The position numbers were made by a program, and so were the translations under genes. From Actinotalea ferrariae (GTDB lineage Bacteria > Actinomycetota > Actinomycetes > Actinomycetales > Cellulomonadaceae), in the NCBI RefSeq assembly GCF_019733465.1, contig NZ_JACVQL010000004.1, positions 1 to 36,760 of the forward strand: DNA of 36,760 nt, read 5' to 3'. This document shows positions 2,681 to 8,128 of this stretch, in pieces (position 1 is the first letter of the stretch; the number at the start of each line of letters is the position of its first letter). The notes below the pieces were generated by a model. The model saw only the letters and a list, made by a program, of their open reading frames with translations, had not been told where the DNA came from and did not search any database.

Positions 2681-2734
2681 TGCGGCCCGTGGACCTCGTC
2701 AGGGGCGTGAGGTCCGCGGCCCGTGGACGTCGTC
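2681..2734 (+). repeat. Direct repeat, 2 copies of about 23 bp
   Basis: Two close copies of gcggcccgtggac(c/g)tcgtcag lie between the VOC gene and the end of the minus-strand zinc operon. No function is evident. Confidence 0.5.
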
Positions 2735-3245
2735 AGCGGCGCGCGTCCGCGGGGTCGCCCACGCCGTCGGTGCGCGCGGCCGGGCGGGTCCGCCGTCGTC
2801 GGACGACGAAGGCGGCGGCCGCGGTCGCGAGGACCGCGAGCACCGTGGCGAGCGCCCACGGCGACTCGGCGGCCAGCGCGACGCCCGCGGCGACCGCCGT
2901 CATGCCACCGCCGGCCCAGACCAGCGCCCACACGAAGTAGCCCGGGAGGGCCCACAGCGTGTAGCGCAGCCACCGCAGGCGGAGCAGCCCGGCGGCGGCG
3001 TGCACGGCGCTCTGGAAGCCGACCGTGAGGAACGAGAGCGGGATCACGGGCATGCCCCAGCGCTCGATCGCGGCCGTGGCACGCCGGACCTTGGGGTGCT
3101 CGAGCCCGCCGGCCCAGCGCGACCGGAGCACGCCGACGGCGATGCCGCGGCCGGCCCAGTACGTCGCCTGGGACCGCAGCGCCGCACCGCCGACGAAGAG
3201 CAGGTAGACGGGCAGGAACGGCCAGCCCTCGAGCCAGTCAGGCAC
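2733..3245 (-). CDS. DedA/VTT-like small membrane protein
   Basis: 170 aa, about four to five hydrophobic segments (roughly residues 8-25, 62-82, 95-115, 120-145), with a basic C-terminal tail. The early LRSQATYWAGRG and the PVIPLSFLTVGFQSAVHAAAG stretch recall the SNARE-associated (DedA/VTT) family of membrane proteins, some of which flip lipids; the match is partial. The GTG start at 3245 overlaps the end of zur by 8 bases, so it is probably the last gene of the zinc operon, with no clear Shine-Dalgarno of its own. A role in zinc homeostasis is only suggested by position. Confidence 0.65.
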   Translation of the reverse strand: MPDWLEGWPFLPVYLLFVGGAALRSQATYWAGRGIAVGVLRSRWAGGLEHPKVRRATAAIERWGMPVIPLSFLTVGFQSAVHAAAGLLRLRWLRYTLWALPGYFVWALVWAGGGMTAVAAGVALAAESPWALATVLAVLATAAAAFVVRRRRTRPAARTDGVGDPADARR

Positions 3246-3753
3246 CGGTCGTCGGCCCGGTCCGCGGTGCGGTGCGTGGGTCGGTCTGCGATCCGCTCCG
3301 CGACCCGCTCGGCGACCCGTTCTGCGGCCCGCCCGATGACCCGCTCGGCGACCCGCTCCGCGCGGACGGGTCGGCGGCGCAGTCCGCGCACGTCCCGAAG
3401 AGCTCCATGGTGTGCTCGATGTCGCTGAAGCCGTGCGTCGCGCCCACCTGCGCCGCCCACGCCTCGACGGTCGGGCCGTCGATCTCCACCGTCGTCCGGC
3501 AGGTGCGGCAGACGAGGTGGTGGTGGTGCTCGCGGCGCGCGCAGCGCCGGTACAGGGCCTCGCCCTCGCCGCTGCGGAGCACGTCCACCTCGCCGCCGTC
3601 GGCGAGCGACTGCAGCGTCCGGTAGACGGTCGCGAGGCCGATGCCCTCGCCCCGGTGGCGCAGCTGCTCGTGGAGCTGCTGGGCGCTCCGGAACTCGTCG
3701 AGGTCCGCGAGCAGCTCGGCCACCGCGGACCGCTGGCGCGTCATCCGCTGCAT
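3238..3753 (-). CDS. zur: Fur-family zinc uptake regulator Zur
   Basis: 171 aa. The winged helix (about 1-75) has the recognition segment GIGLATVYRTLQSLADGGEV. The metal and dimer domain carries HHHHLVCRTC (H76-H79, C82, C85) and a second pair C122/C125, the structural CxxC zinc site of Fur/Zur proteins. Its place behind znuACB argues for Zur rather than Fur. ATG 3753 overlaps the znuB stop (TGATG) and is preceded by GGAGG at about 9 nt. Residues about 131-171 form a Ser/Gly-rich tail absent from typical family members and encoded by a 12-bp tandem repeat. It probably represses its own operon through the palindromes at 6539-6575. Confidence 0.9.
   Translation of the reverse strand: MQRMTRQRSAVAELLADLDEFRSAQQLHEQLRHRGEGIGLATVYRTLQSLADGGEVDVLRSGEGEALYRRCARREHHHHLVCRTCRTTVEIDGPTVEAWAAQVGATHGFSDIEHTMELFGTCADCAADPSARSGSPSGSSGGPQNGSPSGSRSGSQTDPRTAPRTGPTTGA
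3289..3360 (-). repeat. Six 12-bp tandem units inside the 3' end of zur
   Basis: Units of 12 bp (consensus cgacccgctcgg on the plus strand) run from 3289 to 3360. They encode four-residue S-G-rich blocks (PSGS, RSGS, QNGS) in the C-terminal tail of Zur. The period keeps the frame, so copy-number change would alter tail length only. Confidence 0.8.
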
Positions 3754-4679
3754 CACCGACCACCTCCGAGGGCGAGCTGGACGTCGTCGTCGACGGCGGG
3801 GTGGGGGTCCTCCCGCTCGACGGCACCGCGCAGCCGGCGCATCGCCGGCCGGGCCAGCGCGAACGCGGCGTACACGGCGATCGCGAGGACCACGATGGTC
3901 GCACCGGGGGAGACGTCGTTCCAGTACGTGATCGCCAGGCCGCCGACGCACACGACGGCGCCGACGGTCATGGCCACGGTCATCGTGCGGCGGAACGACG
4001 CGGTGACCTGCTGGGCTGCCGCGACCGGCACGATCATCAGCGCGCTCACGAGCAGGAGGCCGACGACCCGCATCGCGACCGTCACCGTGAGCGCGGCGAC
4101 GACGGCGATCGCCAGGTTGAGCGCACGCACGGGGAGCCCCGCGGCGCGGGCGAACTCCTCGTCCTGGCTGACCGCGAACAGCGCCGTGCGCAGGCCGACG
4201 CCGACCACGAGCACGACCGCGGTGAGCGCGACCGTGAGCCAGAGGTCCGCCCACGTGACCGTCGAGATCGACCCGAACAGGTAGCCCATGAGGTTGGCGC
4301 TCGTCCCTCCCGCCTGGGAGATGAGCAGCACGCCACCGGCGATGCCGCCGTAGAACAGCAGGGCGAGCGCGACGTCTCCCGACGTGCGGCCGCGCTCGCG
4401 GACGAGCTCGATGACGACCGCGCCGGCGACGGCGGCGACCACGGCGCCCGGGATCGCGAGGGCGTCGGGCGCGAGGCCGGCGAACGAGCCCACGAGCCAG
4501 CCGAGGGCGACGCCGGTCAGGGCGACGTGCCCGATGCCGTCGCCCAGCAGCGACAGGCGGCGCTGCACGAGGTACGTGCCGATCACCGGCGCGGCGAGGC
4601 CGACGAGCAGCGCCGCGACCAGGGCGCGCTGCATGAGCGGGTCGCCGAGCATGCCCGTGAGCTCGCTCCACACGTTCAC
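3753..4679 (-). CDS. znuB: Zinc ABC transporter permease ZnuB
   Basis: 308 aa with about eight to nine transmembrane helices, an ABC-3 family permease. It opens with PLMQRALVAALLVGLAAPVI and has the family's RRLSLLGDGIGHVALTGVAL, then RVVGLLLVSALMIVPVAAAQ near the C-terminal third. It forms the membrane channel through which ZnuA-bound Zn2+ is imported with ZnuC energy. GTG 4679 overlaps the znuC stop as GTGA, and the stop overlaps the zur start as TGATG, so translation is coupled along the operon. Metal specificity rests on context: ZnuA with a His-rich loop, Zur and Zur boxes. Confidence 0.93.
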   Translation of the reverse strand: MNVWSELTGMLGDPLMQRALVAALLVGLAAPVIGTYLVQRRLSLLGDGIGHVALTGVALGWLVGSFAGLAPDALAIPGAVVAAVAGAVVIELVRERGRTSGDVALALLFYGGIAGGVLLISQAGGTSANLMGYLFGSISTVTWADLWLTVALTAVVLVVGVGLRTALFAVSQDEEFARAAGLPVRALNLAIAVVAALTVTVAMRVVGLLLVSALMIVPVAAAQQVTASFRRTMTVAMTVGAVVCVGGLAITYWNDVSPGATIVVLAIAVYAAFALARPAMRRLRGAVEREDPHPAVDDDVQLALGGGR

Positions 4680-5449
4680 AGCTCCCACCCCACCCTCGGC
4701 GTGAGCGCCGCCGCGTCGTCGTCGGCCGTGTCGTGCGGGTGCACGTGGTCGTGCTCCGGGCCGGCGTGCCCTGCGGCGGGGGACGGCGGCGCGCCGTCGT
4801 GCACGACGCTGCCGTGCCGCAGCACGACGGCGCGACGCACGAGCGGCGCGAGGGCGCCGAGCTCGTGCAGCACGACGAGGACGGTCGTGCCCCCGGCGGC
4901 GAGCGTCGTCAGGGCGTCGGCGAACGCGCGCTGGCTGGGGACGTCGACACCCGCGACCGGCTCGTCGAGCACCAGGAGGTCCGGGCGGCGGACCAGGGCG
5001 CGGGCGATGAGCACGCGCTGCTGCTGGCCGCCGGAGAGCTGGCCGACGGGACGGTGGGCGAGGGCGCCCAGCCCCACCTGCTCGAGCGCCTGCGTGACGC
5101 GCCGGCCCGTGTCGCGCGGCGGGCGGAGCCTGCGGGCGTGCAGCGTGCCCGAGGCGACGACCTCGGCGGCGGTCGCGGGGACGCCCGTCGCGGCCGAGAC
5201 CCGCTGGGGCACGTACCCGATCCGGTCCCACGCGACCGACCGGCCGAGCGGCGTGCCGAGCAGCTCGACGGACCCCCGGTCGACCGGGACGACACCCACG
5301 AGCGCCCGGACGAGCGTCGACTTGCCGGAGCCGTTGGCCCCGAGCAGCGCGACGACCTCGCCCTCGTCCACCGAGAGGTCGACGTGGTGCACGATCGGTG
5401 CTCCGCCGAGGGTCACGTGGACGCCGGTGGCGCGGACGGCGACGCTCAT
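4676..5449 (-). CDS. znuC: Zinc ABC transporter ATP-binding protein ZnuC
   Basis: 257 aa ABC ATPase. Walker A GANGSGKST (37-45), signature LSGGQ (138-142), Walker B LLVLDEP (158-164) and switch His (195, VVLHELG) are all intact. It powers ZnuB. The C-terminus is an acidic, His-rich tail (EHDHVHPHD, about 232-240), which may bind zinc, as in some ZnuC proteins. I took ATG 5449 as start because it directly precedes the first ABC strand; no good Shine-Dalgarno is visible. A 91-bp gap separates it from znuA, the largest gap inside this operon. Confidence 0.93.
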   Translation of the reverse strand: MSVAVRATGVHVTLGGAPIVHHVDLSVDEGEVVALLGANGSGKSTLVRALVGVVPVDRGSVELLGTPLGRSVAWDRIGYVPQRVSAATGVPATAAEVVASGTLHARRLRPPRDTGRRVTQALEQVGLGALAHRPVGQLSGGQQQRVLIARALVRRPDLLVLDEPVAGVDVPSQRAFADALTTLAAGGTTVLVVLHELGALAPLVRRAVVLRHGSVVHDGAPPSPAAGHAGPEHDHVHPHDTADDDAAALTPRVGWEL

Positions 5450-5540: not shown

Positions 5541-6539
5541 TCAGGCGCATCGCAGCGCCTCGCGGAGGGCCTCGAGGTTGCGCTCCATGACGTCACGGTA
5601 GTCGCTGTCCTCGTCCGCCTGGCTCTCGAGGGGGTCGAGCACCGCGGTCCCGATGCCGAGGTCGGCGGCGAGCGTCTCGGCCACCTTCGGGTTGAGGAGC
5701 TGCTCGGTGAAGATGGTGGTCACGCCGTGCTCCTCGACGACCGTGCGGATCTCGCGCAGGCGCGCGGGCGACGGCTCGGCCTCGGGGTCCAGGCCCGAGA
5801 TGCCGACCTGCTCGAAGCCGTACCGCTCCGCCAGGTAGCCGAACGCCTCGTGCGACGTGACGACGACGCGCTGCTCGCAGGTGGCCAGGCCGGCCGCGAG
5901 CTCGGCGTCGAGGGCGTCGAGCTCCTCCGCGAGCGCCGCGGCGTTCGCCGTGAAGACGTCCGCGTGGTCGGGGTCGGCCTCGCCGAGCACGCTCGCGACG
6001 TCGGCCGCGACCGCCGCCAGCAGCGTCGGGTCGAGCCAGAAGTGCGGGTCCCCGCCCTCGTGGTCGTGACCGTCGCCCTCCTCACCCTGCTCGGCAGCCT
6101 CGTCGTGCTCGTGCTCGGGCTCGGCCGCCTCGGCGTGATCGTCCGCGCCGTGGTCCTCCGCCGTCCCCCCGTGCTCGGCCCGGTGCTCGGCGACGGCGGG
6201 CGTCCGCGCGGCGTCCACGACGTGCGCGGGCTCGCGCGCCGCGACCGCCTCGTCGACGGCGGGCTGGAAGCCGCCGAGCACGACGACGACGTCCGCCTCC
6301 CCGACGGAGCGCACCTGGCGCGGGGACAGCTCGAGGTCGTGCGGCTCGGCGCCCGGCGGTGTGAGCGCGGAGACGCTCACGTGATCGCCGCCGACCTGCT
6401 CGGCGACGTACTGGAGCGGGTAGAACGAGGCGAGCACGGCGACGGAGCCGTCGTCGGCGGGGGACGGAGCGCACGCGGCCAGGCCCGCCGGGAGCAGGAG
6501 GGCGCAGGCGACGGCGGCGGCTGCGCGGCGGGTCGACAT
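5541..6539 (-). CDS. znuA: Zinc-binding lipoprotein ZnuA
   Basis: 332 aa cluster A-I solute-binding protein. A lipobox (PAGLAAC) gives a lipidated Cys at residue 23, tethering it outside the membrane. Likely zinc ligands are H67 (in EPHDLELSP), H166 (in DPHFWLDP) and H230 (in TSHEAFGY). Residues about 119-160 are a His/Asp/Glu-rich loop, typical of zinc- rather than manganese-specific members. ATG 6539 is chosen because a well-formed promoter ends so that transcription would begin at this A. An in-frame TTG at 6554 would lie inside the -10. It heads the znuA-znuC-znuB-zur operon. Confidence 0.93.
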   Translation of the reverse strand: MSTRRAAAAVACALLLPAGLAACAPSPADDGSVAVLASFYPLQYVAEQVGGDHVSVSALTPPGAEPHDLELSPRQVRSVGEADVVVVLGGFQPAVDEAVAAREPAHVVDAARTPAVAEHRAEHGGTAEDHGADDHAEAAEPEHEHDEAAEQGEEGDGHDHEGGDPHFWLDPTLLAAVAADVASVLGEADPDHADVFTANAAALAEELDALDAELAAGLATCEQRVVVTSHEAFGYLAERYGFEQVGISGLDPEAEPSPARLREIRTVVEEHGVTTIFTEQLLNPKVAETLAADLGIGTAVLDPLESQADEDSDYRDVMERNLEALREALRCA

Positions 6540-6577
6540 GAGGATGATTCTCAAGACTCCTGAGAACGGTTGTCAAA
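6539..6577 (-). promoter_or_regulatory. znuA promoter with two Zur boxes
   Basis: On the minus strand a perfect -35 TTGACA (6577-6572) is followed after 19 nt by GAGAAT (6552-6547). Seven nt later comes the znuA ATG, a leaderless layout. Two 15-bp palindromes overlie it. TGAGAACGGTTGTCA (6561-6575) covers most of the -35 and the spacer. TGAGGATGATTCTCA (6539-6553) covers the -10 and start codon. Both match the actinobacterial Zur-box pattern TGAnAAnnnTTnTCA closely; centres are 22 bp apart. Zur with zinc bound should shut the promoter. Confidence 0.8.
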
Positions 6578-6742
6578 CTCCCGGCGCCCAGCTGGACGGG
6601 CGCACGATCCGCGCGCCGGTAGCCTGGTGCGGTTGCCCGCCCACCGGTCGACGGCACCGCCTGCCGCCGGTCGACGCGGCAGCGCCGTCCCCACCCCGTC
6701 CGCGCGAGCCACGTGCGGACCGCAGAGCACCCTGGAGCTGAT

Positions 6743-8128
6743 GTGGCACCGACCTCCCGTCTCGACGCCGTCACGAACCTCGCCAAGCGCCGCGGCTTCG
6801 TCTTCCCGGCGGGGGAGATCTACGGCGGTACGAGGTCGGCGTGGGACTACGGACCCCTGGGCGTCGAGCTCAAGGAGAACATCAAGAAGCAGTGGTGGCG
6901 GGCCATGGTCACCAGCCGCGACGACATCGTCGGGCTCGACTCGTCCGTGATCCTGCCGCGTCAGGTCTGGGTCGCGTCGGGCCACGTCGGAGTCTTCACC
7001 GACCCGCTGACCGAGTGCCTCTCGTGCCACAAGCGCTTCCGCGAGGACCAGCTGCTCGAGGAGTTCGAGGAGCGCAAGGGCCGGGCCCCCGAGGGCGGCC
7101 TCGCCGGCGTCCCGTGCCCGAGCTGCGGGACCAAGGGCCAGTGGACCGAGCCGCGCGACTTCAACATGATGCTCAAGACGTACCTCGGCCCGGTCGAGGA
7201 CGAGTCCGGCCTGCACTACCTGCGGCCCGAGACGGCCCAGGGCATCTTCGTGAACTTCGCGAACGTCATGACGACGTCGCGCAAGAAGCCGCCGTTCGGC
7301 ATCGGCCAGATCGGCAAGTCGTTCCGGAACGAGATCACCCCGGGCAACTTCATCTTCCGCACGCGCGAGTTCGAGCAGATGGAGATGGAGTTCTTCGTCG
7401 AGCCCGGCACGGACGCGGACTGGCACCAGTACTGGATCGACACGCGCACCGACTGGTACGTCGACCTCGGCATCGCGCGCGACAACCTGCGCCTCTACGA
7501 GCACCCGCAGGAGAAGCTCTCGCACTACTCGACCCGCACGGTCGACATCGAGTACCGGTTCGGCTTCCAGGGCAGCGAGTGGGGCGAGCTCGAGGGCATC
7601 GCCAACCGCACGGACTTCGACCTGCGGACGCACTCCGAGCACTCGGGTCAGGACCTCTCGTACTTCGACCAGGGCAAGAACGAGCGGTGGGTGCCCTACG
7701 TCATCGAGCCCGCAGCGGGTCTGACGCGCTCGCTCATGGCGTTCCTGGTCGAGGCGTACGCCGAGGACGAGGCGCCCAACGCCAAGGGTGGGGTGGACAC
7801 GCGGACCGTCCTGCGGCTCGACCCGCGCCTGGCCCCGGTCAAGGCCGCCGTGCTGCCGCTGTCGCGGCACGAGGACCTCTCGCCCGTGGCGAGGGACCTG
7901 GCCGCCGAGCTGCGCAAGGCCTGGAACGTCGACTTCGACGACGCCGGCGCGATCGGTCGCCGGTACCGCCGTCAGGACGAGATCGGCACGCCGTACTGCA
8001 TCACGGTCGACTTCGACTCGCTGCAGGACCAGGCCGTGACCATCCGCTCGCGCGACACGATGGCGCAGGAGCGGGTCGGCCTCGACCAGGTGGCCGCGTA
8101 CCTCGCGCCCAAGCTCCTCGGCGCCTGA
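6743..8128 (+). CDS. glyS: Glycine--tRNA ligase (dimeric class II type)
   Basis: 461 aa, the usual length of the alpha2 GlyRS of actinobacteria. It charges tRNA-Gly in the cytosol. Class II motifs are clear: [20 protein letters not shown] (34-53), the glycine/ATP site [13 protein letters not shown] (160-172), motif 2 [19 protein letters not shown] (194-212), and [14 protein letters not shown]. Four cysteines (92, 95, 125, 128) form a likely zinc ribbon in the insertion. The start is GTG 6743 ([10 protein letters not shown]), with GGAG about 7 nt upstream. A GTG 30 bases earlier would add ten residues that do not look conserved. Confidence 0.96.

Follow-up and report, generated by a model that had tools for sequence, protein, structure and literature searches.

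Two Zur boxes over a probably leaderless znuA promoter in Actinotalea ferrariae and its relatives

In Streptomyces coelicolor, znuA is preceded by two Zur boxes, to which Zur binds with a Kd of about 15 and 19 nM (PMC5472717). A review locates them at the −35 and −10 elements and describes a wide Zur regulon for the organism (PMC6103462). The run-off template published for this promoter spans −107 to +87, and an 87-nt transcript is predicted from it (PMC5472717). In Corynebacterium glutamicum, mapping showed transcription of cg0042, cg0043 and cg2911 (znuA1) to begin at the A of the ATG, and both the zinc-dependent binding of Zur and repression by it have been reported (PMC2823685). According to the same source, each of these promoters has one 21-bp Zur motif, and a stretch resembling a half-site lies upstream of cg2911. 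Related operators are also described outside the actinomycetes. In Bacillus subtilis, yciC has two Zur boxes, on −35 and −10, and at the znuABC promoter of Escherichia coli two Zur dimers bind a single compound box cooperatively (PMC6103462). The role of a second Zur box is called unclear in this review (PMC6103462).

An arrangement of this kind is found in Actinotalea ferrariae. The window, which is the whole stretch of 36,760 nt analysed here, contains the genes znuA-znuC-znuB-zur in this order behind one promoter region on the minus strand, where they would be read as a single transcript. The gene znuA (5541..6539) encodes the zinc-binding lipoprotein of an ABC importer (Pfam PF01297, 3.2e-84), znuC (4676..5449) the importer ATPase (PF00005, 4.7e-32) and znuB (3753..4679), which overlaps znuC, the importer permease (PF00950, 1.2e-58). 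The regulator gene zur (3238..3753; PF01475, 4.8e-29) overlaps the stop codon of znuB. The original prediction placed zur four genes after znuA; it does lie in the same operon, but as the fourth gene, three after znuA. The Pfam matches, which exceed their cut-offs, support each of these roles, and gene order and protein families are the basis for reading the locus as a zinc ABC importer operon that includes zur. Matches to the NCBIfam zinc-importer models stay below the curated cut-offs, and the NCBIfam Zur model of the E. coli type gives this Zur 37.8 bits against a cut-off of 167. Such scores are expected for a distant branch, yet they count against the exact label.

Comparison with solved structures places the Zur of A. 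ferrariae in the group of S. coelicolor Zur and Mycobacterium tuberculosis FurB. The match to S. coelicolor Zur (3mwm, 1.5e-53) spans the whole DNA-binding and dimer core and marks the two proteins as orthologous; that to FurB (2o03) reaches 1.4e-49, and E. coli Zur matches at only 0.00069.

Both predicted 15-bp palindromes were recovered by motif matching on the minus strand. The upper box (6561..6575, centre 6568) reads TGACAACCGTTCTCA on the gene strand and the lower box (6539..6553, centre 6546) reads TGAGAATCATCCTCA, so that the centres are 22 bp apart. They have zero and one mismatch, respectively, to the motif TGAnAAnnnTTnTCA. Both palindromes are imperfect, with 6 of 7 arm pairs matching in each. 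They are of the 7-1-7 kind of TGAnAAnnnTTnTCA, as in the znuA-type operator of S. coelicolor, and stand above chance: with up to two mismatches, the window holds 4 matches against 0.62 expected, the maximum in 100 shuffles being 3. At no more than one mismatch, the two znuA boxes are the only matches in the 4.26-Mb genome, and the backwards control gave 0. The search for further sites proposed in the original prediction thus added no other place at this threshold. At two mismatches, 63 places were found against 29 in the control, so that the motif by itself does not identify weaker Zur sites.

The boxes coincide with the core promoter. On the minus strand from 6576 to 6537, TTGACA is followed by 18 nt, GAGAAT, 7 nt and the ATG of znuA (6537..6539). 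The upper box includes TGACA, five of the six bases of the −35 hexamer (6571..6576), as had been proposed. The lower box covers the −10 hexamer (6547..6552) in full, and its last base is the A of the ATG. The claim that it also covers the start codon and that part of the operator is coding sequence holds for this one base, 6539; positions 6538 and 6537 lie outside the box. The two hexamers have 10 of 12 promoter matches in all, the −10 GAGAAT being weak. A scan of 6400-6800 for sigma-70-like promoters gave a single site, under the boxes (shuffles: mean 0.0, sd 0.1).

The position of the −10 hexamer points to a leaderless gene. It occupies the Shine-Dalgarno place, the 14 bases 5' of the ATG are box sequence, and AGGAG is 17 nt before the ATG, not at a normal Shine-Dalgarno distance. 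The 5' end of the znuA mRNA is probably at the start codon, as predicted from the distance between −10 and ATG and from the relatives; the A lies 8 nt past the last −10 base. One estimate holds more than 20% of genes in Actinobacteria to be leaderless (PMC3160421). The start at the A of the ATG put forward in the original prediction is thus supported as probable by the comparisons with the family, with S. coelicolor and with C. glutamicum znuA1.

Among 392 Streptomyces genomes, the published reverse primer for znuA was found in two and both primers in one (G580), which is taken as S. coelicolor or a near relative. The amplicon in this genome is 193 bp against the published 194, which puts +1 at the A of the ATG or at the base before it, depending on the end counted. 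Its znuA has two boxes 22 bp apart, and the last base of the lower one is the A of the start codon ATG. The S. coelicolor operator is thus like that of A. ferrariae in having its boxes on −35 and −10, with the spacing and the end in the start codon seen in G580. The boxes of G580 differ in having one mismatch each to TGAnAAnnnTTnTCA and other arm bases. A further difference from the wide S. coelicolor regulon is that in A. ferrariae this operon is the only place marked by the strict motif. In C. glutamicum, the motif at znuA1 and cg0042/cg0043 likewise overlaps the core promoter, with the start at the A of the ATG (PMC2823685), which is predicted for A. ferrariae, but each promoter there has a single motif. 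The yciC boxes of B. subtilis share the placement; the target gene is another one and the phylum is distant. The E. coli operator likewise places two Zur dimers on one znu promoter, and differs in joining both on one compound box instead of two separate boxes.

The layout was followed through the family. A znuA-like profile matched in 149 of 150 family genomes, A. ferrariae included. The upstream regions analysed come from 107 relatives, chosen as those whose match began no later than residue 32 and five with a partial match; the set does not include another 42 relatives or any second copy in the same genome. With up to two mismatches per box and a spacing of 19-25 bp allowed, both boxes were found in 58 of the 107, at 22 bp in 43 and at 21 bp in 15, and at no other spacing. 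At one mismatch or fewer, both were present in 49. In 57 of the 58, the end of the lower box is the A of an in-frame ATG; in the remaining one (L077) the box precedes GTG. The start was resolved in 105 relatives, while L079, at a contig end, and L104 gave none. These 105 comprise 58 with both boxes, 34 with the upper box only and 13 with the lower box only (two mismatches or fewer), and are not independent, since they fall into 20 genera, 12 of which have at least one two-box member. The upper box is therefore present in 92 and the lower one in 71. Only one box is seen in 47 of the 105 at this threshold, which shows that two boxes are not essential.

The distance between the −35 element and the start varies little in these classes. 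It was measured from TTGAC to an ATG or GTG lying in frame 28-45 nt further along, and in 42 of the 105 relatives more than one candidate start was available, ties being broken towards 36.5 nt. With both boxes, the distance is 37 nt (43 relatives) or 36 nt (15). With the upper box only, it is 37 nt in 18, 36 nt in 13 and 35 nt in 3, and with the lower box only it is 37 nt in 13 of 13. TTGAC is present in these 13 relatives lacking the upper box, though it was itself a condition of the search. Since one-box relatives keep this distance, the geometry of RNA polymerase and promoter is sufficient to account for the spacing.

Within the genus, a strict box was found in 16 of 19 genomes. The two-box layout at znuA was seen in 13 of the 15 loci examined; in each of the 13, the ATG lies 37 nt past −35 and the second box, which has 0-2 mismatches, is 22 bp away. 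The remaining strict-box genomes are A. ferrariae itself (G000) and G125 and G130, which show the two-box layout in L025 and L106. The other two of the 15 loci, L246 and L257, belong to G125 and G130; their strict boxes are away from znuA and lack TTGACA.

Beyond the family, the strict layout becomes less frequent. In 198 genomes of the order, two boxes followed by the start codon (CAT on the opposite strand), with 19-25 bp allowed, matched in 15, at 22 bp in 14 and at 21 bp in one (control 0). Outside the family, 13 of 183 genomes matched, and the strict layout of two boxes plus ATG is thus a minority there. A scan of named genomes matched at least 118 stretches, and many of the named matches listed are from Nocardioides, Janibacter, Phycicoccus, Knoellia, Promicromonospora and their kin. 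In 93 of the 118 matches listed, a ZnuA frame, recognised by our own profile, opens at the overlapped ATG. Of these 93 loci, 76 have the boxes 22 bp apart and 17 have them 21 bp apart, 20-23 bp being allowed. Among the matches listed, 43 ZnuA loci are long enough to show the genes that follow, and 42 of them carry zur on the same strand, 1.5-4.2 kb downstream. The layout is known from Streptomyces and common among relatives, so A. ferrariae offers an ordinary but clean example. A literature search, with most subscription journals outside its scope, found no paper on this fused layout across the actinomycetes.

In four listed matches, all from Nocardioides (L154, L201, L216 and L226), the frame opening at the ATG is the zinc chaperone AztD. 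The scores are 426, 414, 413 and 381 bits against an NCBIfam cut-off of 400, which three pass and L226 fails. The operator before AztD-type lipoproteins supports the layout as a signature of zinc uptake beyond znuA. A further 21 of the 118 matches listed are neither ZnuA nor AztD, and several of them are in unrelated phyla. Among the matches listed, the pattern also precedes a very short frame beginning with MCK or MRK in MAGs of iron oxidisers, Gallionella, Sideroxydans and their kin (L113, L142, L146, L175). In the Gallionella group, the matches are perhaps a Fur operator.

The preferred reading, with a probability of about 0.88, is that the site serves the znuA-znuC-znuB-zur operon as an operator-promoter under zinc control, at which Zur represses a leaderless promoter sterically. 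That Zur boxes cover −35 and −10 of znuA is supported by comparison with the family and with S. coelicolor and by the orthology of Zur. When zinc is plentiful, zinc-loaded Zur dimers would occupy both boxes, covering −35 on one side and −10 with the start point on the other, and RNA polymerase would be kept off. When zinc is scarce, Zur would be released and a leaderless mRNA would be made, starting at the A of the ATG or at most one base away. Importer and repressor would then both be produced, and on the return of zinc, Zur would shut off its own operon. The operator is real and well conserved, and its kind has already been described.

The original prediction went further and proposed cooperative, graded repression by two dimers bound 22 bp apart. 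It is unlikely that selection set the spacing to bring two Zur dimers into contact on one face of the DNA for repression of this kind. Spacings of 22 or 21 bp do correspond to about two helical turns, and EcZur binds znuABC cooperatively as two dimers (PMC6103462). D37 and H41 of ScZur reportedly bring DNA-bound dimers into contact (PMC11077047), and in the alignment H36, D37 and H41 correspond to H28, E29 and H33 of the A. ferrariae protein, so that the putative inter-dimer residues are conservatively kept. Against this, the geometry persists without a second dimer, at 35-37 nt with the upper box only and at 37 nt with the lower one; spacing was accordingly rejected as proof of cooperativity, and this part of the original prediction did not hold up. 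In the review cited above, the two sites at S. coelicolor znuA, like those at B. subtilis yciC, are judged very probably independent of one another and suited to tighter repression (PMC6103462), and the graded response of S. coelicolor has been attributed to several zinc sites in Zur itself (PMC11077047). The geometry kept in one-box relatives is no disproof of dimers touching each other at promoters that have both boxes. As for the number of dimers, a 33-bp probe with one S. coelicolor znuA box is reported to take up a Zur dimer and then a tetramer (PMC11077047). There are indeed two boxes, but two dimers may be too few.

Three other readings of the locus are still less probable. A leadered mRNA from an unseen upstream promoter, with the boxes as a roadblock, would fit the imperfect −10 and a znuA start that is predicted rather than mapped. 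It is very unlikely in view of the single promoter match within 6400-6800, the operator in the Shine-Dalgarno place, the +1 of the S. coelicolor template at the ATG or one base earlier and the C. glutamicum znuA1 start at the A (PMC2823685). Hardly any weight is given to control of the divergent glyS (6743-8128) by the same box pair. This gene starts near 6743 on the strand opposite znuA, and it is divergent beside znuA in 62 of 86 named-genome loci among the matches listed; its start, however, is about 170 bp from the boxes, and the scan of 6400-6800 found no glyS promoter beside them. Service of the boxes to another Fur-family regulator, for iron, manganese or nickel, is equally improbable. 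Fur-family boxes resemble each other, and the tiny frames of the Gallionella-group genomes match the pattern, although a Fur operator there is a guess. The zur gene within the operon, as in the 42 of 43 named loci mentioned above, the zinc-importer genes themselves and the likeness of the box to the S. coelicolor znuA boxes speak for Zur.

With Zur acting on a leaderless promoter as the preferred reading, the 22-bp spacing follows from boxes built on promoter hexamers 18 nt apart. Somewhat short of even odds, it is possible that znuA control in actinomycetes is a fused module, in which the hexamers and the initial base of the start codon double as the boxes. The spacing would then be set by polymerase geometry rather than by dimers touching each other, and lineages would gain or lose either box while promoter and start stay unmoved. 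If this is true, one-box and two-box relatives form a natural series for the benefit of a second operator, that is, tighter shut-off versus the zinc set point. Such natural versions make the role of the second Zur box testable. The relatives also date a metal-repressor switch known in this layout from one model species, as the geometry extends across the 20 resolved genera of one family.

For A. ferrariae itself, ordinary zinc control of zinc uptake is predicted. A COG0523/YciC protein was sought as a further target; PF02492 was not found in the genome and is present in 13 of 14 control genomes. The Zur regulon may therefore be this single operon, as judged from the lack of both a further strict box and a PF02492 protein. 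A VTT-domain (DedA-like) membrane protein is encoded at 2733-3245, overlapping the end of zur, with a Pfam score of 29.1 against a cut-off of 33.9 bits. It may be the fifth gene of the operon.
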